Source: Sphingobium sp. EM0848 (GTDB lineage: Bacteria > Pseudomonadota > Alphaproteobacteria > Sphingomonadales > Sphingomonadaceae). From it: 64,000 nucleotides of DNA. How positions within the stretch are numbered: the stretch's first letter is position 1; every line of letters starts with the position of its first letter. This document shows, in pieces, positions 43,488-64,000 of the stretch. Where the stretch lies: NCBI RefSeq assembly GCF_013375555.1, contig NZ_JABXWB010000005.1, positions 1,315,501-1,379,500 on the forward strand, given 5' to 3'. The notes below the pieces were generated by a model, which saw only the letters and a list, made by a program, of their open reading frames with translations, made no database searches and was not told the DNA's origin. The position numbers and the translations under genes were made by a program.

Positions 43488-43528
43488 TCTCGTGGATCGA
43501 GCGCCACATGTGTAGCTATGTCGGATTG

Positions 43529-43542
43529 GTACCGATCGGTAC
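43529..43542. promoter_or_regulatory. 14-bp palindromic operator candidate (TetR type)
   Basis: GTACCGATCGGTAC is a perfect 14-bp palindrome in the 167-bp region between the divergent sulfatase and double-TetR genes. Its length and centre fit TetR-family operators. A repressor acting on both genes is inferred. Confidence 0.65.
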
Positions 43543-43654
43543 GGGACCTGTCAACAATATCCGTTTGACTGCGCCGCATCACGTCCCTTCGGATGGACAT
43601 GGTTTTACCGAGGCGCTATTCGCACCGCTCCGGAGGAAGGCAGTCACTTCATTC

Positions 43655-47460: not shown

Positions 47461-49989
47461 TCAGAATTGCGCGTTGAAGGTGATGCCGTAGGTCCGCGGC
47501 TCGGCATAATAGCCGCCCGCAAAGCCCAATTGGCCAAAGTCCACGCCGCGGACAAAATCCTTGGCGTTGGTCAGATTCTTCGCCCAGAGCTTCACGCCGC
47601 CAGTGCCGCTACCCAGCGGGATGCCGTCGATCCCGACCTGAAGGTCGAGGATGTCGCGGTTGTCGCCCTTCAGCTCCTCATTGAACGGCGAGGTGCTGCT
47701 GGTGGTGAAGCTGTACTTGCCGTCCTCATGGGTATAGCCCAGCCGTCCGACGATCTTCGCCGAACCCCAGTTGAGCGGGAACTGCGCATTGATCGCGGCA
47801 TTGGCGGTCAGCGGCGAGGTATAGCCCGGCGTCACGATCGACGCGATATTGACCGGCGCGGCGCCCGAAATGGTCGACTGACCGGCCAGGAACTCCTTAT
47901 ATTTGATATCGACATAGCCGATGCTGCCGTCGACCGAGAAATTCTCCGTCAGGATCGCCTGCGCTTCCGCCTCGACGCCGTTATAGACGACCTTGCCGGC
48001 ATTGCCGATGCGGGTGGCGAAGGTGCCGACCGGCGCATTGGTGAGCGGCACGTTCACCGCCAGGTCCTTGTAGATGTTGTGATAGCCGGCGATGTTGAGG
48101 CGCAGGTGACGGTCGAACAGCTCGGTCTTCAGGCCCACTTCATAGGACGTCACATTTTCAGGCTTGAAATAGGGGAGCTTGTTGGTGCCGGTGATCGCGG
48201 CATCCTGCGAGTTGAAGCCGCCCGAACGATAGCCGGTCGCTGCACGCGCATAGAAGTTGATGTCGCGCGTGATGTCGTAGCCCGCCATTAGGTTCCAGGT
48301 GAACTTGTGGAACTTGGCCGTGCCGGTTTCCGGAACAGTCGGGGCGACGGCGCCATTTTGCAGGCGGAACATCGTCTTGTCGTCCCAGGTGTAGCGGCCG
48401 CCGGCGGTCAGGCGGATGCCGCTGTTGCGCCCGCCCGGATAGAAGGTGGCTTGGCCGTAAACCGCCGTGCTTTCGGCAGTGGCGGTGTAGTTGAGCCGCG
48501 CGAGCGTCTGCACCATGCGGTAGCGCGCCGGATTGGCGGCGGCCAACGAAGGACCGAGCCCGCCGAAGTTCGCGAGCAGGATGTTGTTGGTGTCGAGTAT
48601 AAAGCCGCTGTTCTGACGGCCGTTCTCCGAACCCTTCTCCCAGAAATAGAAGCCGCCCACGACCCAGTCCAGCGTGCTGGTGTCGCCGGAAATTTCGATT
48701 TCCTGGCTGAACTGCTTGTGTCGGCGGCTGTTGCTGACGTCATACAGATTCTGCGAGGTGGTCGGCACCTTTGCCGCGGCGAGCGCCGCCGCGGTCCCGG
48801 CCGGGTAGATATTCTGCAGCAGCGTGGCCGGCATGCCGTTCAGCAGCGATGCGCTGGTGAACAGCGGGCCGGTGAAGGCGCCGATGCCGTCCAGATCTGT
48901 CACGGAGTCGCTGTGCCAGTAGCGCAGGCCGGTGGTGGACTTCACCTTGAAAGCGCCGAAATCATTCTGGATCTGGAGGTTATGGCCCCAGCTCTTGTCG
49001 GTGGCGCTGCTCAGAATGTCGTTGCACACCGTCTTGCGATAGACGCGTTCGGGCGTGGCGAGCGCGGCGCAGCGCGCGTCGGCGAAGGTCACGCCCGCCA
49101 GATATTGTTGCACGGGTGCCTGCTGCGTCACCATGATGGACTGGCCGTTGACCACCATCGGCGGACGAGTTGTGCCATCGGCGACATCGGTGAGGATGAA
49201 CGGCATCGGCGTGCCGCGCACCTTGCTCCAATCGAAAATGTAGCGGATGGAGCCGGTACCGCCCAGATTGGCCTTGGCCGCGAAGCGGACGGAGTCCGAC
49301 TTGCGCGCGCCCGGATCACGGCTGTCCTTGGGCTGCATGAGATTGTCGACCAGGCCGTCGCGCTGGCTGTGGCTGTAGGACAGGCTGGTCGAAATGCCGG
49401 CGATCTCACCCGGATCGAGCATGATCTTGCCGTTCCAGGCGTTGAAATTGCCATAGCCCGCCTCGCCCTTCAAACGGAAGGTGGAGGAAGGATCGCGCGA
49501 GATGAAGGCGATCGCGCCGCCGGTCGTGTTGCGGCCGAACAGCGTGCCCTGCGGCCCGCGCAGCACTTCGACCCGCTGCACGTCCATCACGTCCAGGCCC
49601 ATGGCACCAGCGCGGGCGATGTAGATGCCGTCGACATAGAGGCCGTTGGCCGAGTCCACGCCGAAGCTTTCGCTGCCGCCGTTGGAAATGCCGCGCATGG
49701 AGAAGACGGCGGCGCTGTTGCTGGTCGTGCCCTGAACGATGGTGACGTTGGGGGCCAGGCCGCTGAGATCGCGCGAATCCTTGACGCCCAGCTGCTCGAT
49801 CTTTTCAGATCCGATGGCGCTGATGGCGATGGGGACGTCCTGAAGCTTCTGTTCGCGCTTCTGCGCGGTCACGACGATTTCGCCCAGCTGGCCCGATGCG
49901 GCGCCGTCGGCTTCCTGCGCCAGTGCGGCGCTGACATGTGCGATGCTGCTGGCGCCCAGCATGAGGCTGAATAATGCGATGCGTGTCAC
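47461..49989 (-). CDS. TonB-dependent outer-membrane receptor
   Basis: An 842-aa receptor. A signal peptide (VTRIALFSLMLGASSIAHVSAALAQ pattern) leads into GEIVVTAQKREQKLQDVPIAIS, the plug with VLRGPQGTLFGRNTTGGAIA, and a C-terminal barrel ending YGITFNAQF. The GTG at 49989 with GGAGGGG 5 nt upstream is preferred to the frame from 50061. It is the proposed uptake step of the 47-64 kb catabolic region. It is preceded by two copies of the ATATGCG-type motif and followed by a strong terminator. Confidence 0.92.
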   Translation of the reverse strand: MTRIALFSLMLGASSIAHVSAALAQEADGAASGQLGEIVVTAQKREQKLQDVPIAISAIGSEKIEQLGVKDSRDLSGLAPNVTIVQGTTSNSAAVFSMRGISNGGSESFGVDSANGLYVDGIYIARAGAMGLDVMDVQRVEVLRGPQGTLFGRNTTGGAIAFISRDPSSTFRLKGEAGYGNFNAWNGKIMLDPGEIAGISTSLSYSHSQRDGLVDNLMQPKDSRDPGARKSDSVRFAAKANLGGTGSIRYIFDWSKVRGTPMPFILTDVADGTTRPPMVVNGQSIMVTQQAPVQQYLAGVTFADARCAALATPERVYRKTVCNDILSSATDKSWGHNLQIQNDFGAFKVKSTTGLRYWHSDSVTDLDGIGAFTGPLFTSASLLNGMPATLLQNIYPAGTAAALAAAKVPTTSQNLYDVSNSRRHKQFSQEIEISGDTSTLDWVVGGFYFWEKGSENGRQNSGFILDTNNILLANFGGLGPSLAAANPARYRMVQTLARLNYTATAESTAVYGQATFYPGGRNSGIRLTAGGRYTWDDKTMFRLQNGAVAPTVPETGTAKFHKFTWNLMAGYDITRDINFYARAATGYRSGGFNSQDAAITGTNKLPYFKPENVTSYEVGLKTELFDRHLRLNIAGYHNIYKDLAVNVPLTNAPVGTFATRIGNAGKVVYNGVEAEAQAILTENFSVDGSIGYVDIKYKEFLAGQSTISGAAPVNIASIVTPGYTSPLTANAAINAQFPLNWGSAKIVGRLGYTHEDGKYSFTTSSTSPFNEELKGDNRDILDLQVGIDGIPLGSGTGGVKLWAKNLTNAKDFVRGVDFGQLGFAGGYYAEPRTYGITFNAQF

Positions 49990-50042
49990 GGACACCCCTC
50001 CATCTCCCAAAAAAGCGTGCTTGTTACGCAGCGCAGTGAATG

Positions 50043-50080
50043 TATGCGGATATATTGTCAATTAAAATTACGCAAATTAG
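50043..50080. promoter_or_regulatory. Two ATATGCG/CGCAAAT-type motifs upstream of the TonB receptor
   Basis: TATGCGGATAT (50043-50053) and ATTACGCAAATTAG (50067-50080) lie in the 160-bp region between the SDR stop and the receptor start. They match the motif at 14.3, 51.1, 59.6 and 63.9 kb. Confidence 0.5.
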
Positions 50081-50152
50081 CTATTATATCTAAATAATGG
50101 CCGATTTGCGGTATTAATGGTATTGAAAATTACGACTTTATACCCTTGGCCG

Positions 50153-50926
50153 TCAGCCTGGCATGTAGAGTTGCGCCGCCTTGCCTCCGTCGACGGGCAG
50201 CGCGGTGCCGGTAATGTAGCTCGCCGAATCCGACAGCATGAACGCGATGGCATGGGCCAGTTCGTCCGGCGTGCCGCCGCGTCCCATCGGGATGGCGTCG
50301 GTCGTGCGGGCGGCGATATCGGGCACGCGGGTGGCGAAATCGGCGGTTCCCGCCGTCTGCACCTGACCTGGAATGATGGCGTTGACGCGGATGCCGGAAC
50401 GGGCGCCCTCCATCGCGGCAACGGCGGTGAAGTGGATCAACGCAGCCTTGGATGCGGAGTAGCTGGCCATATTGGGTGCGGCGCGAATGCCGCAGGTCGA
50501 CGCGATATTGACGATCGACCCCTTGCCGACGCGGGCCATGACGGCCATCGCCGCCTTGGTGCTGACAAACACGGCGTCGGCGTTGACGGTGAAATCCTTG
50601 CGCCAATGTTCCAGCGTCAGACGGCTGATCGGGGCATAATGGGTCGACATGGCGTTGTTCACCAGCATGTCCAGCCGGCCGTAATCCGCCGCTACCCGTT
50701 CGATCATCGCGGTCAGCGCGGCATCGTCGGCCACGTCGAGCTGGACCGTTTCGACCTTGCCGCCTTCCGCCTTGATCTGCGCTTCTGCCTGTTCCAGCAT
50801 CTCAAGCCGCCGCCCGCAGATCACGACCTGCGCGCCCCCGGCAGCCAGCAATTTTGCCGTGGCAAGGCCGATCCCGTCGCTGCCGCCGGTGATGATGGCG
50901 ACCTGACCCTCGAAATTCGGAAACAT
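50153..50926 (-). CDS. SDR family oxidoreductase
   Basis: A 257-aa classical SDR with TGGSDGIG, NNAM in place of NNAG near residue 91, Ser (IASTCGI) and YSASK. It probably oxidises or reduces a hydroxyl in the pathway encoded around it. It lies upstream of the TonB receptor on the same strand, separated by 160 bp with its own motifs, and is divergent from the acyl-CoA ligase across a 301-bp, AT-rich, motif-containing region. Confidence 0.88.
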   Translation of the reverse strand: MFPNFEGQVAIITGGSDGIGLATAKLLAAGGAQVVICGRRLEMLEQAEAQIKAEGGKVETVQLDVADDAALTAMIERVAADYGRLDMLVNNAMSTHYAPISRLTLEHWRKDFTVNADAVFVSTKAAMAVMARVGKGSIVNIASTCGIRAAPNMASYSASKAALIHFTAVAAMEGARSGIRVNAIIPGQVQTAGTADFATRVPDIAARTTDAIPMGRGGTPDELAHAIAFMLSDSASYITGTALPVDGGKAAQLYMPG

Positions 50927-50990
50927 TTTCTCTCCTGTTGCGAATCTGTCCGCCCGCCAGGGCAGAGCCTGTTGTGGGGGATTGTCATCG

Positions 50991-51149
50991 ATATGCGGAA
51001 AATGTAAACCTTCAAAATCCGAATATGTCGAAATTAGGGGTGGATTTTTCCACGTATATGGGAAAGACTGCTATAGGAAATGCCGCGTTTCTGCGGATTT
51101 CCGATGAAAATGATATGCGTAAAATAAATTCGTTTGAAATACGCATATT
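50991..51149. promoter_or_regulatory. AT-rich divergent regulatory region with repeated ATATGCG motifs
   Basis: Elements seen: ATATGCGGAAAAT (50991-51003), AATCCGAATATG (51017-51028), CTGCGGATTT (51091-51100), ATATGCGTAAAA (51113-51124) and AAATACGCATATT (51137-51149). The last two give perfect arms ATATGCGT and ACGCATAT. The stretch separates a divergent SDR and acyl-CoA ligase. The 92-aa frame here is rejected as a gene. Confidence 0.6.
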
Positions 51150-51227
51150 GCTGAATATGATCATGGAAAATTCGGCCAATGCGGCGAATCGGGTGAGGAT
51201 GAATGTCAGTTTATAGAAAGGCCCCCC

Positions 51228-52877
51228 ATGGCTAGCGTCGATCCCGTTTTTGCCGAGGTAACGGCGGCCGGCACCCCGTTCGAGATCGGGGAGCGAGGCG
51301 GCATTCGCTATTTTTCCCGCGCGCCCGATGATCTGGCGCTATTGATCGAAAGTGCGCGTCGCCATGGCGACGCGACTTTCCTCGTTGAACAGGACGATTT
51401 CGGCCAGGAGCGGCGGCTGAGCTATGCGCAGACGTTCGACTGGCGCGACCGGATGGCATCGCGACTGGGGATTAGGCGCGGCGACCGGGTAGCGATTTGC
51501 ATGCGCAACCGCGCCGAATGGATGATCGCCTTCTTGGCGGTAATCCGGCTGGGCGGCGTTGCGGTGTTGCTCAACAGCCGGGGCGCGCCCGCCGAACTGG
51601 CGGCGATGATCGAGGATGCGGAGCCGGCGCTGGTGCTGGCCGATGCTGAGCGCGCCGCGCTGATCCGGGAAAGCGGGTGCCCGGTGCCGGTGCTAGATGC
51701 ATTGCAGCCGGACGATCTGGGCGAGGCCGGGGAGCTGCCCGAAATTGGCGGAGCGAACGCCGACGATCCCTGCGCGATCCTCTTTACCTCCGGCACCACG
51801 GGGCGGGTCAAGGGCGCGGTGCTGTCGCATCGCAGCCTGATCACCGGGCTGCTCGGCACGCAGCTGACGGGCATGATGGTGCTGCACAATATGGCGCGCA
51901 ACTATGGCGTGTCGGTCGAAAGCATCATGGCGCAGGTGCCGCCGCAGGCGACGCTGCTGGTCTATCCGCTGTTCCATATTTCGGGGCTTGGCTCCGCTTT
52001 TCTGGCGCCGCTGCTGTCGGGTGCGAAGATCGTCATCATGCGCCGCTGGGATGCAGCGGAGGCGGTGCGGATCATCGCGCGGGAGAAGATCACGATGCTG
52101 ACGTCCGTCCCGACCATGTTGTGGGACATGATCCGCCACGCACAGCAGGGAGAAATGGACCTGTCGTCGCTGCGCAATATCGGATCGGGCGGGCAGGCGC
52201 TGCCGCTCAACCTGCTGGATGAGGTGCGGGCGCTCTGCCCCCATGCGATGATCGGCGTCGGCTATGGCATGACCGAGACTTCAGGCGCCATCGCGCAGGC
52301 TGTAGGTGCCGATTTCCTGAACAACCCCGCCGCTGCCGGCCGGGTGCTGCCGCTGATCGACCTTCGCATTGCCGGGGCAGATGGCCAGGCCACGCAGACC
52401 GGGGAGAGCGGCGAGATCCAGGTCCGGGGTGCCATGGTGATGAGCCAATATTGGAACCGGCCGGAGGAGAACGCCAAGGCCTTCACCGAAGACGGTTGGC
52501 TGCGCACCGGCGATGTCGGGCGGCTGGACGAGGACGGCTATCTGTTCATCGTCGACCGGATGAAGGACATGGTCATTTCAGGCGGCGAGAACATCTATTG
52601 CGCGGAGGTTGAGCGGGTGCTTGGCGAAATGCCGCAGATCGTCGAATGCGCGACCTTCGGCATTCCCGACGAGCGGCTGGGCGAGCAACTGGTCGCCATC
52701 GTCGTCGGCCGCGACGTCGATGAGCGCGCGGTGACGGACTGGGTGGTCGAACGACTGGCCCGTTACAAGGCGCCCGGGCGCGTGGTTGTGATACCCGACC
52801 CGCTGCCGCGCAACCATCTCGACAAGATCGACAAGATCGCGCTCCGCGCGCTGTGGCCGGAACTGGCCAGAATATAA
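51228..52877 (+). CDS. Acyl-CoA synthetase (AMP-binding, ANL superfamily)
   Basis: A 549-aa enzyme that activates a carboxylate to its CoA thioester through an acyl-adenylate. The P-loop-like AMP motif ILFTSGTTGRVKGAVLSH is at about residue 184, GYGMTETSGA is the A5 motif, and the C-terminal TGDVGRLDEDGYLFIVDRMKDMVISGGENI and PRNHLDKIDKIALR are A8 and A10, the last holding the catalytic Lys. It opens the plus-strand catabolic series, 14-20 bp before the amidohydrolase. The substrate acid is unknown. Confidence 0.93.
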   Translation: MASVDPVFAEVTAAGTPFEIGERGGIRYFSRAPDDLALLIESARRHGDATFLVEQDDFGQERRLSYAQTFDWRDRMASRLGIRRGDRVAICMRNRAEWMIAFLAVIRLGGVAVLLNSRGAPAELAAMIEDAEPALVLADAERAALIRESGCPVPVLDALQPDDLGEAGELPEIGGANADDPCAILFTSGTTGRVKGAVLSHRSLITGLLGTQLTGMMVLHNMARNYGVSVESIMAQVPPQATLLVYPLFHISGLGSAFLAPLLSGAKIVIMRRWDAAEAVRIIAREKITMLTSVPTMLWDMIRHAQQGEMDLSSLRNIGSGGQALPLNLLDEVRALCPHAMIGVGYGMTETSGAIAQAVGADFLNNPAAAGRVLPLIDLRIAGADGQATQTGESGEIQVRGAMVMSQYWNRPEENAKAFTEDGWLRTGDVGRLDEDGYLFIVDRMKDMVISGGENIYCAEVERVLGEMPQIVECATFGIPDERLGEQLVAIVVGRDVDERAVTDWVVERLARYKAPGRVVVIPDPLPRNHLDKIDKIALRALWPELARI

Positions 52878-52897
52878 CCGGAAAGGAGAGTTTTCCC

Positions 52898-53767
52898 ATG
52901 GCCATGCCCAAGGATATCAAGATCATCGACTGCATGCTGGGCATTCCGGAGGCGGAGGACCGTTCCGAATGGTTCGCGCCCTTCCGCCCGCTGATCAAGG
53001 ACCAGCAGACGCTTCAGCAGTTCGCGATGCCCGCGCAATATATGTTCAAGGACATTCCGCAGACCGGCAAGGTCGACGATTTCGTGTCCTGGACCGTCGA
53101 GCAGATGGACCAGCACAATATCGACAAGGCGCTAGTCGGCTGGAACGACAATGCAACATCTTACCGCGCCAAGGAAATGTACGGCGACCGTTTCTTCTTC
53201 GACCTGCCCTGCAACCCGAATGGGGGTATGGAGGAAGTGCGCCGGATCAAGCGCATCCATGCCGAAGTCGGTCTGTCGGCGATCAGTGTGTTTCCGGCGG
53301 GTACGCTGCCGCAGGTCGCGATCAACCATAAATATATGTTCCCACTCTACACCTGCGCGGCGGAACTGGGCCTGCCGGTGCTGCTCAATGTCGGCATTCC
53401 CGGTCCCCGCATCCCGATGGAGACGCAGAAGGTCGAGCATCTGGACGAAGTCTGCTGGTACTTCCCGGACCTCAAGATCGTCATGCGCCACGGCGCCGAG
53501 CCGTGGGAGGCGTTGGCCGTCAAGCTGATGCTGAAATGGCCGAACCTCTATTATTCGACCAGCGCCTTCGCGCCCAAGCACTATCCCAAGGCGATCATCG
53601 ACTACGCCAATACACGTGGCGCCGACAAGATCATCTATGCTGGCTATTTCCCCATGGGGCTCAGCCTCGACCGCATCTTCAGCGATATGCAGAATGTGCC
53701 GTTCAAGGATGAGGTCTGGCCGAAATTCCTGCGCGAAAACGCCCTCAAGGTCTTTGACCTGAAATAA
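52898..53767 (+). CDS. Amidohydrolase-fold protein lacking usual metal ligands
   Basis: A 289-aa protein with the shape of Amidohydro_2 (ACMSD/decarboxylase) enzymes: FPDLKIVMRHGAEPWEALAVKLMLKWPNLY and ADKIIYAGYFPMGLSLDRI. However, the N-terminal D-x-H-x-H motif reads D11-C-M-L-G, the strand normally giving a His reads LPVLLNVG, and the G-S-D-Y-P strand reads AGYFP. Only the His of RHGAEP remains. It may be a non-metal or inactive relative. AAAGGAGAG lies upstream of ATG 52898. It is 17 bp before the Rieske oxygenase gene. Confidence 0.82.
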   Translation: MAMPKDIKIIDCMLGIPEAEDRSEWFAPFRPLIKDQQTLQQFAMPAQYMFKDIPQTGKVDDFVSWTVEQMDQHNIDKALVGWNDNATSYRAKEMYGDRFFFDLPCNPNGGMEEVRRIKRIHAEVGLSAISVFPAGTLPQVAINHKYMFPLYTCAAELGLPVLLNVGIPGPRIPMETQKVEHLDEVCWYFPDLKIVMRHGAEPWEALAVKLMLKWPNLYYSTSAFAPKHYPKAIIDYANTRGADKIIYAGYFPMGLSLDRIFSDMQNVPFKDEVWPKFLRENALKVFDLK

Positions 53768-53784
53768 GATAGCGGAGCTTTCCC

Positions 53785-54873
53785 ATGTCGAACACGCATG
53801 ACGCAACAGACGCCCGCACCCCCCCGGTGGCGGTCTGGCAGATCCTCGAAAAGCTGAAGGGCCAGGACCTGGCCGACTGGCGCCTGGCCGAAGTGAAGGG
53901 CCGCGCCTCGATCGAGGAACGCAACCTGAATATCGGTATTCCCTTTGGCTGGTATCCGATCCTGCTCTCGTCCGAACTGCAGGTGGGCGAGGTCCAGCCG
54001 CTGCGCTATTTCTCCAAGGATTTGGCGATCTGGCGCGGAGAGGACGGCAAGGTCCGGATGCTCGACGCCTATTGCAAGCATCTGGGTGCGCATATGGGCC
54101 ATGGCGGCAAGGTGCATGGCAATCTGCTGGAATGCCCCTTCCACGCCTGGCGCTATGATGGTGACGAGGCGGCGGTGAAGGAAATTCCCTATGCCCGCGT
54201 CGTCCCGCCTCAGGTGAAGCGCAAATGCACGCGCAACTGGCACATCACCGAAGCCAATCGCTGGATCTGGGCTTGGTATCATCCGGAGGATGTCGCGCCG
54301 CTGTTCGAGGTGGCCGTGTTGCCCGAAGCGACCGATCCCGAATGGACCGACTATGAGATCCATGAATGGAATGTCTGGGGTTCGATCCAGAACATGGCCG
54401 AAAATGGCGTGGACGTGGCGCATTTCCGCTACATCCATGGAACCGCCAATGTGCCGCTGGGCGAGCTGCGCTGGGGCGAATGGGGCCGCGGCGCCGACGT
54501 CAAGGCGAAGATGGGCACGCCCTGGGGCGAGGTGGACGGCCTGATCAGCTATGACACCATGGGCCCGGGCCAGAGCTGGACGCGCTTCACCGGCATTTCC
54601 GAAACGCTGCTGGTCGCCTGCCTTGCGCCGGTCGAGCTGGACCATGTTCATGTCCGCTTCTGCTTTACCCAGCCCAAGGCGCAGGCCGAGGGCGAGCGCG
54701 CGGGCGTCGCCAAGGCGATCATCCGCGACATCTGCAAGCAGTTCGATCAGGACAAGGTCGTCTGGGACCGGCAGAAGTTCGAGCCGAACCCGATCATCTG
54801 CGATGGTGACGGCCCGATCCCGCAGTTCCGCAAATATTATTCGCGCTACTATGTGGATCAGGCTGCTTCGTAA
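53785..54873 (+). CDS. Rieske non-heme iron oxygenase alpha subunit (KshA-like)
   Basis: A 362-aa oxygenase component. The Rieske 2Fe-2S motif is C97-K-H99...C117-P-F-H120 (YCKHLGAHMGHG, ECPFHAW). The mononuclear iron site contains D210-V-A-H213-x4-H218 (ENGVDVAHFRYIHG). It resembles 3-ketosteroid 9-alpha-hydroxylase (KshA) and related ring hydroxylases more than benzoate-type dioxygenases. No beta subunit, ferredoxin or reductase gene is adjacent, so an external electron donor is needed. It is in operon with the acyl-CoA ligase and amidohydrolase. Confidence 0.9.
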   Translation: MSNTHDATDARTPPVAVWQILEKLKGQDLADWRLAEVKGRASIEERNLNIGIPFGWYPILLSSELQVGEVQPLRYFSKDLAIWRGEDGKVRMLDAYCKHLGAHMGHGGKVHGNLLECPFHAWRYDGDEAAVKEIPYARVVPPQVKRKCTRNWHITEANRWIWAWYHPEDVAPLFEVAVLPEATDPEWTDYEIHEWNVWGSIQNMAENGVDVAHFRYIHGTANVPLGELRWGEWGRGADVKAKMGTPWGEVDGLISYDTMGPGQSWTRFTGISETLLVACLAPVELDHVHVRFCFTQPKAQAEGERAGVAKAIIRDICKQFDQDKVVWDRQKFEPNPIICDGDGPIPQFRKYYSRYYVDQAAS

Positions 54874-54972
54874 CTGGATGAAGTGACCGATCCGCTGCGC
54901 AGGCGCTCGAGCGAGACGAGTGCCTGCGCAGGACGATAATGAAACAGGCGGCGCACGCGGGAGAGGATTTGA

Positions 54973-56481: not shown

Positions 56482-56499
56482 TAGACAAGGATAGACATT

Positions 56500-57258
56500 A
56501 TGCGTGGATTGAAGGGTAAGACCGGCATCGTCGCGGGCGGTGGGCGCGGCATCGGCGCGGCGACGGCGCGGCGTCTGGCGGACGAAGGCGCGCAGGTCGT
56601 GATCGGCGACATCATGGCGGAATGGGCGATGGATACCGCCGCAGCGATCCGCGAGCAGGGCGGCAAGGCGATTGGCGTGGCGTTGGACGGCACCAGCGCG
56701 GCGTCGCAGGCGGCCATCGTACAGGCGGCGTTGGATGAATTTGGCGGCCTCGACTTCTACCATTCCAATCTGGCGGGCGGGACAGAGGGGGATATCGATA
56801 TCCTCAATTGCAGCGAGGAAGTGCTGGACCGCAGCTTCGCCATCAACGCGAAGAGCCATTTCCTGGCCACGCAGGCGGCGCTGCCCGTGTTGATCGAGCG
56901 GGGCGGCGGGGCGATGATCTACACCTCCTCCGGCGCGGCGATTTCCGGCAATCCGTTGCAGGTCGCCTATCCCATGACGAAGAACGCGCTGCATGCGCTG
57001 GTCCGCCATGTCGCGCGCAAATTCGGCAAGCAGGGCATCCGCGCCAACGGCATCTGCCCCGGCGTGGTGATGACCGAAGCCGTCGCCCAGCATTTGACCC
57101 AGGATTATGTCGACTCCATGCTGGCCGCCATTCCGCACCGGCGGTTGGGCCAGCCGGACGATATTGCCGGGGCCATCGCCTTCCTCGCCTCCGATGACGG
57201 GGTGTGGGTCAATGGCCAGCTCTGGCATGTGAACGGCGGATCGCTGTTGCGGGATTGA
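56500..57258 (+). CDS. SDR family oxidoreductase with altered NNAG motif
   Basis: A 252-aa SDR. VAGGGRGIGAAT gives the cofactor loop and Y-P-M-T-K the catalytic Tyr/Lys, with Ser in IYTSSGAAI. The NNAG segment is replaced by HSNLAGG, so the fold stabilisation there differs. It lies 18 bp downstream of the amidase and 4 bp before the MFS transporter and is part of the same operon. Confidence 0.88.
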   Translation: MRGLKGKTGIVAGGGRGIGAATARRLADEGAQVVIGDIMAEWAMDTAAAIREQGGKAIGVALDGTSAASQAAIVQAALDEFGGLDFYHSNLAGGTEGDIDILNCSEEVLDRSFAINAKSHFLATQAALPVLIERGGGAMIYTSSGAAISGNPLQVAYPMTKNALHALVRHVARKFGKQGIRANGICPGVVMTEAVAQHLTQDYVDSMLAAIPHRRLGQPDDIAGAIAFLASDDGVWVNGQLWHVNGGSLLRD

Positions 57259-57262
57259 TGCC

Positions 57263-58564
57263 ATGAACAGCCGGACAGCTTCCGTGCCCCCCTCCAATCC
57301 GTGGGTCGTGCTGGCGATGCTGCTGGCGATCTACATCTTCAACTTCGCCGACCGTTATCTGATCACGGGACTGATCGGGCCGATCAAGGCGGAGTTTGGG
57401 TTGGGCGACGGGATGATGGGCCTGCTGATGGGGCCGGCTTTCGTCGTGTTGTACGTCGTGCTGGGGGTGCCCTTTGCGCGGATGGCTGACCGGGGAAGCC
57501 GAATCCGCATCATCGCGGCGGGCTGCGTGTTGTGGAGCGGCGCGACGGTTGCGACCGGGCTTGCTACTGGCCCGATCAGCCTGGCGCTGGCACGGGTCGG
57601 CGTCGGCGTGGGGGAGGCGGCCTTCGTCGCCCCGGCCTATTCGTTGCTGTCCGATTATTTCCGGCCTGAAAAGCGCGGCTTCGCCTTCGCGCTGCTGGGG
57701 TTGGCCACTTATTTCGGCCAAATTGCCGGGCAGGGCGGCGGTCCCGCGATCGCGGCGGTGCATGGCTGGCGGCTGGCCTTTATCGGCATGGGCGTGGCGG
57801 GCGTGGCGCTGGGGGTGCTGGCGCTGTGGCTGATTCGAGAGCCGGTGCGCACGAAACTGGCGGAGGATGGGGTCATGCCCTTCGGCCGGCTGGTGGCGCT
57901 GCTGCTGCGGCGACCTGCCTTCCTGCTGATGGCGTTGACTTTTGGGCTGGCCGCGCTGTCGGGCGTTGCCTTTTCCTATTGGGGGCCGGAACTGTTCGCG
58001 CGGCGTTATGGGCTGGACCCGGTGACCGCCAAGTCCGCTTTCGCGCTCAATTTCGGTCTGTCGGGGTTGATCGGCACCCTGTTGTTCGGTGCGCTGGCCG
58101 ACCGGCTGTCGGCACGCAGCATGATATGGCCCTCGCGCCTGTCTGCGCTGGCTATTGGCGCGGCGACGGCGGCGATTCTGGCTGCGACCTGGGCGGACAG
58201 CTTCACGCTGGCGCGCTGGCTGGCAGTGCCGGCGGGGCTGCTGGGGGGCGGTTGGCCGGTGGGGCTCCTCGCCACCCTGCAGTATATGCTGCCCGCGTCG
58301 ATCCGCGCCTCGTCCACCGCCTTGTTCCTGGCGGCGACAACTTTGCTGGGCTATTTCGTCGCGCCCTGGGCGACTGGCGCGATCAGCGGCTGGCTCGGCA
58401 ATGACGGGCATTCGCTCGCCATTGCGCTCAGCCTGATCATTCCCTTCGGTTTCCTGGCTTCGGCGCTTGGCTGGCTGGCCGGCGCCCGGCTGGAGCGGGA
58501 CCGGCAGGCATTGGCACAGGCCCCGTTTCCATCGGCCGGACATTGTGCCATGGAACCCGCATGA
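57263..58564 (+). CDS. MFS transporter (ACS/spinster-like)
   Basis: A 433-aa membrane transporter with 12 predicted segments. NFADRYLITGLIGPIKAEFGL at the start and GVPFARMADRGSR (motif A-like) are typical of the anion:cation symporter and spinster group, which imports organic acids. It sits at the end of the ligase-Rieske-amidase operon and overlaps the first gene of a Lrp pair (ATGA), so transporter and regulators are coupled. Probably takes up the acid substrate or product. Confidence 0.88.
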   Translation: MNSRTASVPPSNPWVVLAMLLAIYIFNFADRYLITGLIGPIKAEFGLGDGMMGLLMGPAFVVLYVVLGVPFARMADRGSRIRIIAAGCVLWSGATVATGLATGPISLALARVGVGVGEAAFVAPAYSLLSDYFRPEKRGFAFALLGLATYFGQIAGQGGGPAIAAVHGWRLAFIGMGVAGVALGVLALWLIREPVRTKLAEDGVMPFGRLVALLLRRPAFLLMALTFGLAALSGVAFSYWGPELFARRYGLDPVTAKSAFALNFGLSGLIGTLLFGALADRLSARSMIWPSRLSALAIGAATAAILAATWADSFTLARWLAVPAGLLGGGWPVGLLATLQYMLPASIRASSTALFLAATTLLGYFVAPWATGAISGWLGNDGHSLAIALSLIIPFGFLASALGWLAGARLERDRQALAQAPFPSAGHCAMEPA

Positions 58565-59040
58565 ATGAAGGCTTTTCCATCGACGAGATCGACCGCAAGA
58601 TCATCGGCCACCTGCGCCGCAACGGACGGTCCACCAACCAGCAGATCGCAGAATCGCTCGACCTGACAGCCGCCACGGTGTCGGGTCGCATCCGCCGGAT
58701 GGAGCAGTCCGACAAGTTGAACGTGGTCGCCGTGTCGGACTTTGCGGCCCATGGGCTGGACGTGTTGATCCAGATGGCGATCGAGGTCGACGGTCGCGCC
58801 GCGTCGGACGTTGCCGATGAACTGGCGACGCTGCCCGAAGTCTTCGCTGTTTTCCTCGTCACCGGGCGGCATAATATCGACCTGCTGCTGGCGCTGCGGG
58901 AATATGGCGACCTGCCCAATCTGATGATCGACAAATTGTCCAAGATCCGGGGGGTACGGACGATGCGGCCCTCCATCGTGCTGGACGTCATCAAATATCA
59001 GTTCGAATCGGGGCCACTCGTTTCGGGAGGTGGTGCATGA
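58561..59040 (+). CDS. Lrp/AsnC family regulator, pair B, first gene
   Basis: A 159-aa regulator: HTH (IDEIDRKIIGHLRRNGRSTNQQIAESLDL, TAATVSGRIRRM) plus a RAM domain at about 75-150. It starts at ATG 58561, overlapping the MFS stop; the frame from 58543 is rejected. It matches the first gene of pair A (11619-12101) and overlaps the second gene of its pair by ATGA. Confidence 0.88.
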   Translation: MNEGFSIDEIDRKIIGHLRRNGRSTNQQIAESLDLTAATVSGRIRRMEQSDKLNVVAVSDFAAHGLDVLIQMAIEVDGRAASDVADELATLPEVFAVFLVTGRHNIDLLLALREYGDLPNLMIDKLSKIRGVRTMRPSIVLDVIKYQFESGPLVSGGGA

Positions 59041-59531
59041 GCAAGGCGTCCATCGATGATCTCGACCGTCAGCTGATCGACATGCTGGCGCGCGACGCCC
59101 GCGTGTCCAACCGCAAGATCGCTGCGGATCTGGGCGTCAATGAAGGCACGATTCGTGGCCGTATCAAGCGGTTGCAGCAGGACGGGCTGCTCGCCTTCAC
59201 TGCGATCACCAGCCTCGACCTGGACAGGGATGTTCGTATCGCCTTCATCGGCATCCAGGCCGATATAGAGAATATCCGCGACATTGCGCGGCAGATCGCG
59301 GCCATGCCCATGGCGCGGGCGGTGATGATCGTGGCTGGTCAGTTCAACATCATGGTGACCTGCCTGTTCACCGATCTGGGCAAGTTTCATCATGTGGCCG
59401 CAGACCAGATCCTGGCGATGCCGGGGGTACACCATATTGAAACCTCGATTGCGGTGGGCGCGGTCAAATATAATTCGCGGATCGTGCGCATCACGGAAAA
59501 GCCCCAGCCAGACGGTGATGATATCGGCTGA
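59037..59531 (+). CDS. Lrp/AsnC family regulator, pair B, second gene
   Basis: A 164-aa Lrp-type protein with HTH (LDRQLIDMLARDARVSNRKIAADLGV, NEGTIRGRIKRLQ) and RAM domain. It resembles 12098-12589. Translationally coupled to its partner. It is followed by an AT-rich region with two identical 12-bp motifs, ahead of the acyl-CoA dehydrogenase operon, a likely target. Confidence 0.88.
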   Translation: MSKASIDDLDRQLIDMLARDARVSNRKIAADLGVNEGTIRGRIKRLQQDGLLAFTAITSLDLDRDVRIAFIGIQADIENIRDIARQIAAMPMARAVMIVAGQFNIMVTCLFTDLGKFHHVAADQILAMPGVHHIETSIAVGAVKYNSRIVRITEKPQPDGDDIG

Positions 59532-59573
59532 TTAAGGCGACGATTCGACTTTTTCGTAAAACAGAATAGAAAA

Positions 59574-59648
59574 ATATCCGCAAATATCGAAAATGCCCCG
59601 GTTTCGATCTTGCAATTTATGGATTTTTAGATAATTATATCCGCAAAT
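59574..59648. promoter_or_regulatory. Two identical 12-bp motifs, 63 bp apart
   Basis: ATATCCGCAAAT occurs at 59574-59585 and again at 59637-59648. The 63-bp spacing is about six helical turns, so both would face the same side of the DNA. The stretch is AT-rich and precedes the acyl-CoA dehydrogenase operon. Confidence 0.65.
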
Positions 59649-59739
59649 GGTGGCGAGTTGCGCTTTCGTACCCGCCATTGCGGAACCGATAGCGGGCGTA
59701 AATCCGCGCAATGGGCCAAGGAAGAGGATTACCAGGCAA

Positions 59740-60798
59740 ATGGAATTCGCCTTTACCGAAGAGCAGCAGATGATTGCGGAGACGGCGCAGGCCTTCTTCC
59801 GCGACAATGCGACGAGTGAGCGCGTGCGTCGTGCCATGGCCATGGATGGCATCGATCAGGAATTGTGGACCGCCTTTTGCCGCGAACTAGGGTTGAGCGG
59901 CATCGGCCTGCCCGAAGAGACGGGCGGATCGGGGCTGGGCATGGTCGAACTGGCGATCATCGCGGAGGCTGCCGGCGCGCAGGTCGCCGCGCTGCCGATG
60001 CTGGGCAGTCTGGTGCAGGCGGCGCAGGCGATTGCGGCTGGGGGCACGCAGGATCAGAGTGCGGCGCTGCTGCCCGAGTTGATCTCTGGCGAGGCGATTG
60101 GCGGCTATTTTTATGACAGCGCGCTGAAGGTCGAGGGCGATCGGCTGACCGGCGGGGCGCAATATGTGACTCATGGCGCCAGTGCATCGCTGTTCGTCGT
60201 CACCGATAATCGGGGCATGTGGGTGGTCCGGGCCGATGATCCGGGCGTGACCGTCACAGCGCAGACCAGCATGGACCAGACCCGCCCGCTTGCCCGCGTG
60301 GCGCTGGACAGCGCGCAGGGTGAGGCGCTTGCCAATCCCGCCGCCGCGCTGGTCGCAGTGCATCGCGCCGCCTTCATTGCGGTGGCGGCGGAGGCTTTGG
60401 GCGGCGCGCAGGCCTGTCTCGACCGCACCGTCGCCTATTCGCAGGAACGCGTCCAGTTCGGCCGTCCGATCGGTTCGTTCCAGGCCTATAAGCACCGGCT
60501 GGCCGACATGATGATCGAGATCGAGCAGGCGCGTTCGGCGGTCTATTGGGCGGCCTGCGCGGTGGACGAGCGGTCCGATGAGGCTGATCTCGCGATCCAC
60601 GCCGCCAAGAGCTTCGCCGCCGATACATATTTCCGGTGCGCGGGTGACATGATCCAGCTGCATGGCGGCATCGGTTTCACCTGGGAACATGACGCGCATC
60701 TCTTCTTCAAACGCGCCCGCTCGCTCCAGACCATGTTGGGCAGCGGCAACTGGCACCGCGAACGCATTGCCACGATGATCCTGGGGGAAGCAGCATGA
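59740..60798 (+). CDS. Acyl-CoA dehydrogenase family protein
   Basis: A 352-aa flavoprotein of the acyl-CoA dehydrogenase fold (N-terminal FTEEQQMIAETAQAFF, C-terminal MIQLHGGIGFTWEHDAHLFFKRAR). Where helix G of long-chain/isovaleryl types carries the catalytic Glu this chain has AAEALGG. It may be the partner subunit of the next protein in a heterotetramer, as in steroid side-chain dehydrogenases. ATG 59740 has GGAAGAGGA upstream. It overlaps the next gene (ATGA). Confidence 0.87.
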   Translation: MEFAFTEEQQMIAETAQAFFRDNATSERVRRAMAMDGIDQELWTAFCRELGLSGIGLPEETGGSGLGMVELAIIAEAAGAQVAALPMLGSLVQAAQAIAAGGTQDQSAALLPELISGEAIGGYFYDSALKVEGDRLTGGAQYVTHGASASLFVVTDNRGMWVVRADDPGVTVTAQTSMDQTRPLARVALDSAQGEALANPAAALVAVHRAAFIAVAAEALGGAQACLDRTVAYSQERVQFGRPIGSFQAYKHRLADMMIEIEQARSAVYWAACAVDERSDEADLAIHAAKSFAADTYFRCAGDMIQLHGGIGFTWEHDAHLFFKRARSLQTMLGSGNWHRERIATMILGEAA

Positions 60799-61979
60799 AA
60801 CTGGGTTTTTCGCAGGAAGACGAACTGTTCCGGCAGGAATGCGCCGACTGGCTGAATGGCCAGATGGCGGGCGAGTTCAAGGATATCAAGGGCATCGCCA
60901 AGCTGACCGGCAGCCCCGAGCGCCGCAAGGAATGGGAGCAGCAGCTCGCCGCCCATCGCTGGTCCTGCATCGGCTGGCCGTCGCAATGGGGCGGGCGCGA
61001 CGCGACGCTGGCGCAGCAGGTGATCTTCGCGGAGGAATATGCCCGCGCCGGGGTGCCGGGTCGTATCAACCATATCGGCGTCGAATTGGCCGGGCCGACC
61101 ATCCTGGCCTTCGGTACGGAGGAACAGAAGCGCCAGTTCCTGCCCGGCATCGCAGGTGGCACGACGATCTTCTGCCAGGGCTTTTCCGAACCCAATGCGG
61201 GGTCGGACCTGGCCAGCGTCCGCACGCGCGGGCGGCTGGAGGGCGGCGAATGGGTGGTGAACGGCCAGAAGATCTGGACCAGCCTTGCCCATATCTCCGA
61301 CTGGATCTTTGTTGTCACCCGCACGGAGGAAGGGTCGCAGGGACCCAAGGGCCTGACCTTCCTGATGATGCCGCTGGATCAGCCGGGCATTGAGGTGCGC
61401 GGCATCCGCCAGATCAATGGCGATGCTGAGTTCAACGAGACTTTCTTCACCGATGCGCGCTGTCCGGCGGACAGCCTGATCGGTGCGGTCGGGCAGGGCT
61501 GGGGCATCGCCATGGGCCTGCTCGCCTTCGAACGCGGCGTGTCGACGTTGGGCCAGCAAATGGGTTTTCGCAACGAACTGGACGAGATCATCGTGGCGGC
61601 CAAGGCCAATGGCGCGGCCAATGACCCGCTGATCCGCCAGCGTCTTGCGAAGGCGGAGATTGGCCTGCGGCTGATGCGCTATGGCGCGCTGCGGATGCTG
61701 TCGCAGACCGATCACAAGAAGATCGATGGCGCCGCGCTGACCTACAAGATCCAGTGGGCCAGCTGGCGCCGCAATCTGGGTGAACTGGCGATGGACGTGC
61801 TGGGGCAGGCGGGCGAAGTCACGGACCATGCGGAATATGAATGGGATATGCTGCCCAATCTGTTCCTCTTCTCCCGCGCTGACACCATCTATGGCGGCAC
61901 CAATCAGATTCAGCGCAACCTGATCGCGGAACGCGGGCTTGGCCTGCCGCGCGAACCGCGTTACGTCCCGAAAGGATGA
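60795..61979 (+). CDS. Acyl-CoA dehydrogenase family protein
   Basis: A 394-aa acyl-CoA dehydrogenase. The canonical catalytic position of medium-chain enzymes (Y-E-G-T) is YGGT here, whereas LLAFERGVST supplies a Glu where long-chain/isovaleryl types have theirs. Translationally coupled with both neighbours by 4-bp overlaps. The pair probably forms a 2,3-desaturating complex for a bulky acyl-CoA, consistent with a ring-containing substrate (inference). Confidence 0.9.
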   Translation: MKLGFSQEDELFRQECADWLNGQMAGEFKDIKGIAKLTGSPERRKEWEQQLAAHRWSCIGWPSQWGGRDATLAQQVIFAEEYARAGVPGRINHIGVELAGPTILAFGTEEQKRQFLPGIAGGTTIFCQGFSEPNAGSDLASVRTRGRLEGGEWVVNGQKIWTSLAHISDWIFVVTRTEEGSQGPKGLTFLMMPLDQPGIEVRGIRQINGDAEFNETFFTDARCPADSLIGAVGQGWGIAMGLLAFERGVSTLGQQMGFRNELDEIIVAAKANGAANDPLIRQRLAKAEIGLRLMRYGALRMLSQTDHKKIDGAALTYKIQWASWRRNLGELAMDVLGQAGEVTDHAEYEWDMLPNLFLFSRADTIYGGTNQIQRNLIAERGLGLPREPRYVPKG

Positions 61980-62404
61980 CGCAAGAGGAAGATCTGTTCG
62001 AGCGGCTGAAGAACCTGCCGCCGCGTGGCCATCATGCCATGCTGGGGCTGTATTCGGTCGCCGACGGGCCTGACTGGGTGGAAATGGCCTGCCCCTATGA
62101 TCCACGCTTCCTGATGGATGCCGACAAGGGGCTGGTATCGTCAGGGCCGATCCTCTCGCTGATCGATGCGGCGGCGGGTGCGGCGGTGATCGCGCGGACG
62201 CGGCAATGGCGGCCGATGGCGACGCTGGACATGCGGGTTGATTATCTGCGCGGGGCGCGGGTGGGGCAGACTCTCCATGCCCGCGCCACCTGTCATCATC
62301 TGACGCGGCAGGTCGCTTTCCTGAATTGCGAGGTGCATGACGGAGCGCCGGAGGACCGCGTGGCCTCCGCCGCGATCAGTTTCTTTTTTATGGATGACGC
62401 ATGA
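61976..62404 (+). CDS. PaaI-like hotdog thioesterase
   Basis: A 142-aa hotdog-fold protein. SLIDAAAGAAVIARTRQWRPMATLDMRVDYLRGA is the PaaI/thioesterase core with the helix holding the catalytic Asp. It should cleave acyl-CoA thioesters or act as an enoyl-CoA hydratase-like partner. Overlaps both neighbours by ATGA, so it is made in step with the dehydrogenases and the second hotdog protein. Confidence 0.85.
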   Translation: MTQEEDLFERLKNLPPRGHHAMLGLYSVADGPDWVEMACPYDPRFLMDADKGLVSSGPILSLIDAAAGAAVIARTRQWRPMATLDMRVDYLRGARVGQTLHARATCHHLTRQVAFLNCEVHDGAPEDRVASAAISFFFMDDA

Positions 62405-62766
62405 TCGCGGACACACCTTATGCACAGATGCTGGGGATTCGGACCCTTGATACCGGCACCTTGATGATGCCGGTGTCGTCCGATCTGGAGGGTCGGACTG
62501 GCTTTCTCTATGGTGGCGTGATCGCCAGCCTGTTGGAACTGGCCTGTCTGGAGGCGGTGTCGCTGGAACTGGGCGGGATCGACCGGCGGCCGCGGCCGGT
62601 GAATATTTCCTTCGACTTTCTGCGCGGCGGTGAAATGGCGGACAGCTTTGCGCAGGCACGGATCGTTCGGATCGGCAAGCGTATCGTGAACGCCAGCGCG
62701 CTTTGCTGGCAGCGTGACAGGGACAAGCCGATCGCCAGCGCGCGCATGCATTTGATGCTGGATTGA
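62401..62766 (+). CDS. PaaI-like hotdog thioesterase
   Basis: A 121-aa hotdog-fold protein: GRTGFLYGGVIASLLELACLEAV is the core helix, with Glu instead of Asp in the usual catalytic place, and RPRPVNISFDFLRGG the following strand. Adjacent hotdog genes often form heteromers. It ends the operon, 10 bp before the end of a convergent AraC gene. Confidence 0.83.
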   Translation: MIADTPYAQMLGIRTLDTGTLMMPVSSDLEGRTGFLYGGVIASLLELACLEAVSLELGGIDRRPRPVNISFDFLRGGEMADSFAQARIVRIGKRIVNASALCWQRDRDKPIASARMHLMLD

Positions 62767-62776
62767 GGGAATCCCC

Positions 62777-63844
62777 TCACCCCAACCCTGCCCGCCAGGC
62801 TGCGGGCGACTGACCGGTCCATTGGTGGAAGGCCCGCCGAAACGCGGTGGCATCGCTGAAATGGGTGCGTCGCGCTATCTCCGTGATCGACAGTCGGGGA
62901 TCGGACAGCAGCCTTTCCGCAATATCCTGCCGGGCCTGGGCGCGAAGCGCGATCAGCGCGGTTCCCTCCGCCGCCAGCCGGCGTTTCAGCGTCGCTTCGC
63001 TGATGCTGAAGGACCGGGCCAGCCACGCTGCCGTCGCAGGCGCTTCGCCGCTGGTCAACATGGCCGCGAAGAGGTGCAGGATGCGTTCCGACAGGGGCGC
63101 GTCCTTCGACAGCGGCACGGCCAGATCGAAGGGAAAGCTGCGGATCAGCGGCTTCAGCTCCGGCGGCGTGCGGATGACGGGCCGGTCCAGATAGTCGGCG
63201 GCAAAGCGCAGGCTGTTTTCCGCCGCGCCATGGGTCAGCGGATGCGGCATCAGGTAGAAGATCGTCCGTTCATCCAGCAAAGGCGGATAGCGCATCGCCG
63301 CGCCCGTCAGCCGGATATCCTCCCCGATCAGCCAGCCGAACAGCCGATGATAGGTTGAAAGGCCCGTCAGGTCGGACAGATAGGCGCAGGCGTTGTGCAC
63401 CGTGCGCGCCGTTTCCATGTCCAGCCGCGCCATGCCGCCTTCCTCATGGAGGCGCAGCCGCCCGGCGCGCGGGCCGATGAGCAGGGAAAACTGGTCTGTC
63501 CGCTCAATCGCCTCGCGCAGTGTGCGGCTGGTGATGACGCAATGGCACAGCATGTCGATGCCGAGCTTGGTCAGGGGCTCGCGCCCCTCCTGCCGGGCGG
63601 CGCATTCGTCGAGTGCCCAGGTGCAACGGGCATAGAGCCGGGCGAACTCGTCATGGGACAAAGCAGGGGCAGGAGCGGTGGGGGAAAGCAGGCTGGCGGA
63701 GAGATGGGTCAACCCCGCATCACGCAGCAAAGCGGGCTGGTTGCCGCCATAGGCACCCACCAGGCGCAGCAGGTCGCGCGCCACCGTGGCCGAGGCGCGG
63801 CCCGGCGCTGGGCGGGAAAAATGTCTGTTGAGCTCCTTTGTCAT
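62777..63844 (-). CDS. AraC family regulator (long ligand-binding N terminus)
   Basis: A 355-aa regulator of the same type as 26567-27658: N-terminal domain with HRLFGWLIGEDIRL and SFPFDLA, and C-terminal HTHs (ARSFSISEATLKRRLAAEGTAL, SITEIARRTHFSDATAFRRAFHQWTGQSPAAWR). It is divergent from the SnoaL-like gene at 63928 across an 83-bp region with inverted AATTTGCG arms. It probably controls that gene or the upstream operon. Confidence 0.88.
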   Translation of the reverse strand: MTKELNRHFSRPAPGRASATVARDLLRLVGAYGGNQPALLRDAGLTHLSASLLSPTAPAPALSHDEFARLYARCTWALDECAARQEGREPLTKLGIDMLCHCVITSRTLREAIERTDQFSLLIGPRAGRLRLHEEGGMARLDMETARTVHNACAYLSDLTGLSTYHRLFGWLIGEDIRLTGAAMRYPPLLDERTIFYLMPHPLTHGAAENSLRFAADYLDRPVIRTPPELKPLIRSFPFDLAVPLSKDAPLSERILHLFAAMLTSGEAPATAAWLARSFSISEATLKRRLAAEGTALIALRAQARQDIAERLLSDPRLSITEIARRTHFSDATAFRRAFHQWTGQSPAAWRAGLG

Positions 63845-63869
63845 TGCTTTTGACCTATTTTAACATTTT

Positions 63870-63907
63870 AATTTGCGCTTACAATGGTGAAAATCACTAC
63901 GCAAATT
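63870..63907. promoter_or_regulatory. Inverted AATTTGCG/CGCAAATT arms, putative operator
   Basis: Perfect arms AATTTGCG (63870-63877) and CGCAAATT (63900-63907) lie between the divergent AraC and SnoaL-like genes, centre to centre 30 bp apart. They share the TTTGCG core with motifs elsewhere in the window. Confidence 0.5.
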
Positions 63908-63927
63908 CAAAGGAGTTGAGGGAGAGC

Positions 63928-64000
63928 ATGAGCGAGACCGAAAGCCTGTTGGCGCGTATCGATCGGCTGGAATCGCTGGATGCGATCCGCCAGTTGCCCG
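63928..64000 (+). CDS. SnoaL-like protein, 3' truncated by window edge
   Basis: Only 24 codons are present: MSETESLLARIDRLESLDAIRQL. The pattern equals the start of the SnoaL-like protein at 15193-15720 (LEDINAIRQL). GGAGAG lies immediately upstream of the ATG. It is divergent from an AraC gene. Confidence 0.6.
   Translation, partial: MSETESLLARIDRLESLDAIRQLP

Follow-up and report, generated by a model that had tools for sequence, protein, structure and literature searches.

A probable bile-salt uptake and side-chain degradation cluster of the Chol11 type in Sphingobium sp. EM0848, with a metal-less amidohydrolase-fold protein as a candidate carbon-carbon lyase

The DNA analysed here is a 64,000-nucleotide stretch (the window) of the 5.64 Mb genome of Sphingobium sp. 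EM0848, positions 1,315,501 to 1,379,500 of contig NZ_JABXWB010000005.1 (G000:C5:1315501-1379500 in our coordinates), and the subject is a compact group of catabolic genes near its right end. Judged by sequence comparison, positions 47461-62766 very probably hold a cluster for bile-salt uptake, deconjugation and side-chain degradation, a further member of the kind known from Novosphingobium (now Sphingobium) sp. Chol11. The identification is drawn from the synteny of the two clusters and from the published Nov2c gene numbers of Chol11, which match the positions of the corresponding genes. Within the cluster, an oxygenase and an amidohydrolase-fold protein are conserved together and may carry out the carbon-carbon cleavage that removes the side chain, a proposal that we put forward tentatively.

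When relatives of the cluster's Rieske protein were searched for, 79 loci were obtained, including those of Chol11 (L011), a model organism for bile-salt degradation, and Sphingobium estronivorans AXB (L054). Chol11 carries a syntenic counterpart of each of the 14 genes from the TonB-dependent receptor to the second hotdog protein, at 58-95% identity and with no inserted gene as judged with a rough gene caller, and all fifteen genes, including that of an AraC regulator, are found in S. estronivorans AXB at 89-97% identity. Table 1 of PMC8399759 gives Nov2c230 of Chol11 as SclA, 227 as Bsa, 222 as Scd4B and 221 as Scd4A, 228 is described as a monooxygenase in PMC12175502, and 232 is described in PMC12882949 as a TonB receptor that is 15-fold more abundant on cholate. 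These six published pairs of number and function agree exactly with the gene order at the Chol11 locus, and activities of Bsa, SclA and Scd4AB in Chol11 have been reported by other groups. The numbering also agrees with the layout of the 380,199-base Chol11 contig, where a block running from an AraC gene to a ketosteroid dehydrogenase gene occupies 8-15 kb and the side-chain genes are found at about 243-258 kb.

The first two genes of the cluster lie on the minus strand and encode the TonB-dependent receptor (47461-50061; counterpart Nov2c232, 74% identical to Chol11, the reference for all identities in this paragraph) and a short-chain dehydrogenase/reductase (SDR; 50153-50926; Nov2c231, 77%), while every gene from 51228 to 62766 lies on the plus strand. 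An acyl-CoA ligase of the SclA type, a steroid-24-oyl-CoA ligase (51228-52877; Nov2c230, 69%), an amidohydrolase-fold TIM barrel of the Amidohydro_2 family (52898-53767; Nov2c229, 95%) and a monooxygenase with Rieske and KshA_C domains (53785-54873; Nov2c228, 91%) follow one another in the order and on the strand seen in Chol11. Next come an amidase at the position of Bsa (54973-56481; Nov2c227, 83%), with a twin-arginine start judged by eye without a predictor, a second SDR (56500-57258; Nov2c226, 88%), a major facilitator superfamily transporter (57263-58564; Nov2c225, 74%) and two Lrp/AsnC regulators (58543-59040 and 59037-59531; Nov2c224 and 223, 58% and 60%). The last four genes encode the Scd4AB-type acyl-CoA dehydrogenase pair (59740-60798, Scd4B, Nov2c222, 79%; 60795-61979, Scd4A, Nov2c221, 93%) and two hotdog proteins of the 4HBT family (61976-62404 and 62401-62766; Nov2c220 and 219, 71% and 68%). 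The amidohydrolase gene likely starts at the ATG at 52898, because a Shine-Dalgarno-like GGAAAGGAGA precedes it; for the first dehydrogenase gene, 59740 is the most likely start.

Several statements of a first-pass annotation, made from the letters alone, hold under this comparison. The genes that it named are all long open reading frames at the coordinates it gave, with domains that agree by NCBIfam or Pfam; the dehydrogenase and hotdog pairs are coupled by 4-base overlaps, as is the Lrp pair; and NCBIfam and Pfam domains reveal among the cluster genes neither a ring-cleavage enzyme nor a thiolase nor a reductase component. Its guess of a steroid-like substrate, or more broadly of a ring-bearing acid or amide, fits the Chol11 counterparts, among them an amidase for bile salts, a CoA ligase for steroid side chains and a pair of steroid acyl-CoA dehydrogenase subunits. 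It had also regarded the cluster as uncharacterised and matching no named pathway, and here it was mistaken: the neighbourhood comparison that it had proposed as a refuting test finds the same order in a published and characterised pathway, the Chol11 side-chain cluster with SclA, Bsa and Scd4AB (PMC8399759, Table 1), and the claim of novelty fails.

Among the 12 cluster proteins scanned with NCBIfam none scored above an equivalog cut-off (the two Lrp proteins and the AraC protein had a Pfam scan only), and the best model for the ligase, CasG, gave 382 bits against a cut-off of 750. The nearest PDB entry to the amidase is 6-aminohexanoate-cyclic-dimer hydrolase. The best PDB matches of the dehydrogenase subunits are Tcur3483 and Tcur3481, both chains of a single solved complex (6wy8/6wy9) that we take to be a steroid enzyme.

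The AraC gene (62777-63844, minus strand), which the first-pass annotation had counted with the cluster, is instead the divergent neighbour of the next operon, a block just right of the window at L006:1339-6375 (G000:C5:1379338-1384374), and its Chol11 homologue (66% identity) likewise sits beside the counterparts of that block. The block encodes a SnoaL-like protein, an old-yellow-enzyme homologue, two SDRs and a flavoprotein. The best PDB match of the flavoprotein is a delta4-5alpha-3-ketosteroid dehydrogenase (4at0, E 1e-99); the SnoaL-like protein has a weak match to BaiE (E 6e-4), ranked behind a putative scytalone dehydratase entry. Chol11 counterparts of the SnoaL-like protein, the old-yellow-enzyme homologue, the second SDR and the flavoprotein are 89, 80, 88 and 83-84% identical, and the first SDR has no close counterpart in the matching Chol11 region. 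According to PMC8399759, the Nov2c11-17 region of Chol11 serves 12-hydroxyl handling and 5alpha-ketosteroid dehydrogenation (5alpha-KSTD), with Nov2c12 as Hsh1, 13 as Sor1, 15 as SteA and 17 as 5alpha-KSTD. On the Chol11 contig the AraC gene is the 11th called, and the SnoaL gene, left uncalled and found by search, and the old-yellow-enzyme gene rank 12th and 13th; the Chol11 SDR and flavoprotein would then be numbers 15 (SteA) and 17 (5alpha-KSTD), provided that the 0.8 kb gap behind the old-yellow-enzyme gene holds one uncalled gene. The block appears to be of the steroid A-ring and 12-hydroxyl type, joined to the side-chain cluster here and far from it in Chol11. Handling of a 12-hydroxyl group is typical of cholate and deoxycholate.

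That adjoining block, together with the Bsa-type amidase, speaks against the idea that the cluster serves some steroid acid or amide other than bile salts in this strain, a minor rival that we consider very unlikely. In its favour, the cluster also occurs in S. estronivorans AXB, a near-identical gene order is carried on a plasmid of Sphingobium sp. TomTYG46, and relatives of the amidohydrolase (E 1e-40) are found on further plasmids, in all on 15 of 72,556 plasmid records, every one from Sphingobium or Novosphingobium. The two plasmids that were opened, pTomTYG46a and pNL2 of Novosphingobium aromaticivorans, each hold ligase, amidohydrolase, Rieske and amidase-type genes together. The second of these speaks against another substrate, for N. 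aromaticivorans DSM 12444, which carries the core on pNL2, is presumably one strain with F199. F199 is reported as a bile-salt degrader in PMC12175502.

The core genes of the cluster are linked. In a sample of 396 genomes from the order, members of the amidohydrolase clade (at least 82% identity), the ligase (E 1e-130, with no further cut-off) and the Rieske protein (at least 63%) occur in the same 28, and Scd4A (at least 75%) in 29, namely those 28 and G389, so that the four linked genes are found together in 28 of 28 carrier genomes. An IpdA-like marker of ring degradation (at least 53%) is present in 38 genomes, including all 28 (hypergeometric 7e-35, with kinship ignored). The identity cut-offs were fixed post hoc from gaps in the match lists, the totals at the stated E-values before them being 53 for the amidohydrolase, 34 for the Rieske protein, 37 for Scd4A and 41 for the ring marker, and the 28 carriers are not independent, 14 coming from one genus and the whole set from 10. 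The gap between ligase and amidohydrolase genes is 27-43 bases in 27 of the 28 (in G394 the two lie on separate contigs), and a Rieske gene is at most 272 bases from the amidohydrolase gene in 27 and 1009 bases away in one.

Gene order was counted in 72 of the 79 loci, with seven distant loci set aside. The order ligase, amidohydrolase, Rieske is kept in 58 of the 62 loci whose upstream DNA is long enough, the amidohydrolase gene lies immediately upstream of the Rieske gene in 60 of those 62, and a Bsa-type amidase gene lies immediately downstream of the Rieske gene in 50 of 67 loci reaching far enough. The exceptions to the three-gene order are L057, which is rearranged, L069, which shows no amidohydrolase gene, and L071 and L076, in which no ligase scores above the cut-off. 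Within its own genus the cluster is patchily held, since only 3 of the 15 genomes shown carry it. More distant amidohydrolases occur in G054, G085 (65% and 63%) and G333 (56%), all without the ligase at E 1e-130. A second Rieske protein of the window genome, at G000:C5:411644-412597, is 44% identical to that of the cluster; G144, G215, G260 and G327 have Rieske proteins like this second one (43-44%) and a Scd4A-like gene (68-70%), without amidohydrolase or ligase at the cut-offs.

The amidohydrolase-fold protein (52898-53767) has the TIM-barrel fold of the Amidohydro_2 family by structure alignment. The metal ligands of this family are presumably an (E/H)xH pair, a His after strand 5 and an Asp after strand 8. 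When these columns are located through hidden Markov model and structure alignments, all four positions are found replaced (M10, G12, N161 and Y247) in 73 of 73 distinct clade sequences, while the His after strand 6 is retained. The lost metal site argues against the label of hydrolase. Such a label, taken from annotation, would make the barrel protein an enzyme that releases glycine or taurine from conjugates, as was also suggested by the authors who described a related cholate-induced cluster, bsd I (EGO55_16295-16335) of Caenibius tardaugens, in which the amidohydrolase EGO55_16305 is induced about 21-fold (PMC12882949). We judge this role unlikely, because the metal site is lost and a Bsa-type amidase is encoded nearby, directly after the Rieske gene; moreover, EGO55_16305 is described in the same source as having no predictable secretion signal. 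A wider branch of Amidohydro_2 also lacks the HxH metal motif, and includes paralogues below 40% identity among L140-L154 and PDB entry 3irs, its nearest solved member, which is uncharacterised.

The Rieske protein (53785-54873) appears to be an intact oxygenase, with CxH-CxxH and DxxHxxxxH motifs that are invariant in 75 of 75 matches. Its KshA_C domain scores above the cut-off at 93 bits and its best PDB matches are KshA entries, so that it might be read as a further 9alpha-hydroxylase with no part in side-chain removal. That reading is improbable: five other proteins of the genome score 190-203 bits to KshA_C, and in Chol11 the KshA homologues for C9-hydroxylation are given in PMC12175502 as Nov2c407, 430 and 440, with 228 as a probable side-chain-related hydroxylase.

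How sphingomonads that degrade bile salts remove the side chain is described as unknown or largely unknown in a 2021 review (PMC8399759) and a 2025 paper (PMC12175502). The former lists Shy1, Sal, Sad and the C3 side-chain enzymes, which are used elsewhere, as missing in Chol11, and this makes the conserved pair of oxygenase and barrel protein a natural choice for the step left without an enzyme. Hydroxylated compounds are reported with strains deleted for sclA or scd4A (PMC12175502), suggesting that neither the CoA ester nor the double bond is required for at least one hydroxylation.

In the route proposed here, which uses the four genes of the core, the TonB receptor would import the bile salt, the Bsa-type amidase would free glycine or taurine, SclA would form the C24-CoA ester of the oxidised steroid, and Scd4AB would introduce a delta22 double bond. 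The Rieske enzyme would hydroxylate the steroid, at C17 in the chemistry favoured here. A hydroxyl group at C17 would stand vinylogous to the thioester of the delta22-enoyl-CoA, so that a retro-aldol cut of C17-C20 by the barrel protein, made without a metal, would directly yield a 17-ketosteroid and a C5 pentenoyl-CoA; a barrel working by acid-base catalysis through H195 and Y247 might suffice for this, and a 22-keto group in place of delta22 is a possible variant. The barrel protein would on this account be a metal-free carbon-carbon lyase that removes the C5 side chain in one step, with no second round of beta-oxidation, a reading that we hold to be possible rather than probable. No earlier proposal of the retro-aldol idea was found in the literature searches made, and the article by Feller et al. 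2021 (AEM 87:e01453-21), whose title refers to a novel side-chain pathway, may hold a similar one.

Several points weigh against the account given so far. With no NCBIfam equivalog passed, the proteins are named from their synteny with, and identity to, those of Chol11; C17 as the carbon attacked by the Rieske enzyme, the C17-C20 cut and the catalyst of that cut are what we infer; L069 has ligase and Rieske genes with no amidohydrolase gene above the cut-off in its 21 kb; and in C. tardaugens the authors' guess for the amidohydrolase is conjugate hydrolysis, and a MaoC-like hydratase encoded in bsd I would suit a hydration route (PMC12882949). In such a route, a 22-keto acyl-CoA would arise through hydration, catalysed by a hotdog or MaoC-type protein, and SDR-catalysed oxidation, and the barrel protein would cut a 17-hydroxy-22-keto thioester to release 3-oxopentanoyl-CoA, with the Rieske enzyme still acting. 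This course is likewise conceivable but doubtful. The cluster does hold two SDRs and two hotdog proteins, and the first and second SDR genes are above their cut-offs in 35 and 36 of 72 loci; against this, the hotdog genes are above theirs in only 9 of 72, several loci being truncated, and 4HBT proteins are usually thioesterases.

Two intergenic regions of the cluster, the divergent one at 50927-51227 and that at 59532-59739 before the dehydrogenase pair, share a motif, ATAT(G/C)CGNAAA, with two copies in each. It was first read by eye in these regions and counted afterwards, and the count is post hoc to that extent: exact copies lie at 50991-51003 and 51113-51125, copies with one mismatch each at 59574-59586 and 59637-59649, and these are the only four matches in the window, with 0.70 expected and none of 100 shuffles giving four or more. 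The shorter form TAT(C/G)CGNAAA also occurs four times in the 64 kb, always in these two regions; of nine loci examined, that of S. estronivorans keeps it (one and two copies), L036 has it once and the other seven lack it. Twelve-mers common to both regions, with at most one mismatch, were sought in eight sequences: L011, L010 and L073 gave CG-centred words and L054 gave an unrelated pair; the window, L009, L041 and L044 gave none. Poorly kept in relatives, the motif does no more than hint at one regulon, and it is a possible operator of the Lrp pair.

Genes of the type needed for steroid ring degradation appear to be present elsewhere in the genome, about 380 kb from the side-chain cluster on the same contig. 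At C5:1761-1785 kb lie HsaA-, HsaC- and IpdE2-like genes, which score below their NCBIfam cut-offs, a FadD3-family ligase gene above its cut-off, and genes for a pimC-like dehydrogenase, a thiolase and an enoyl-CoA hydratase; the gene adjoining the HsaC-like gene encodes a CoA-transferase subunit that we take to be IpdA.

To the left of the cluster, the window holds two large sulfatase-family genes (33892-36198 and 41157-43487), with a further TonB receptor gene (36270-38513) near them and a transposase gene (DUF772/DDE; 39428-40843) between them. An open reading frame for 481 amino acids (43466-44911) has two TetR_N matches and apparently encodes a tandem TetR repressor. Sulfated bile salts are conceivable substrates, given these sulfatase genes and an arylsulfatase that is described as cholate-induced in C. 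tardaugens (PMC12882949).

To the published cluster the present analysis adds a completed context, the linkage of the four core genes and the loss of the metal site, and these make the cleavage step testable. If the lyase reading is true, it would represent a new way of steroid side-chain cleavage and give a metal-less amidohydrolase fold a new activity, and it would bear on how manure, soil and water are cleared of bile salts and other steroids.

Among known proteins, the barrel shares its TIM-barrel fold and the strand-6 His with ACMSD, LigW, LigY and gamma-resorcylate decarboxylase, and unlike these metal-dependent enzymes it lacks all four ligands; it is 22% identical to BB4693 of Bordetella bronchiseptica (3irs). 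Among known clusters, Nov2c219-232 of Chol11, with scd4AB, bsa and sclA, agrees in all 14 genes, their order and their strands, and differs in that its counterpart of the A-ring and 12-hydroxyl block lies about 230 kb off on the same contig, whereas that block directly adjoins the cluster in EM0848. As described in PMC12882949, bsd I of C. tardaugens shares the amidohydrolase, monooxygenase, Scd4AB and SclA genes and includes a TetR regulator, a MaoC-like protein and an alpha/beta hydrolase. The StdA1-Scd1AB-Shy-Sal-Sad route of Pseudomonas stutzeri Chol1, as given in PMC8399759, likewise begins with CoA ligation and dehydrogenation by a two-subunit acyl-CoA dehydrogenase. No aldolase, MaoC-type hydratase, aldehyde dehydrogenase or side-chain thiolase is found among the cluster genes of EM0848 (Shy and Sal were not searched for genome-wide), and in place of the aldolase, hydratase and aldehyde dehydrogenase of the P. 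stutzeri route this cluster has a Rieske enzyme and an amidohydrolase-fold protein.

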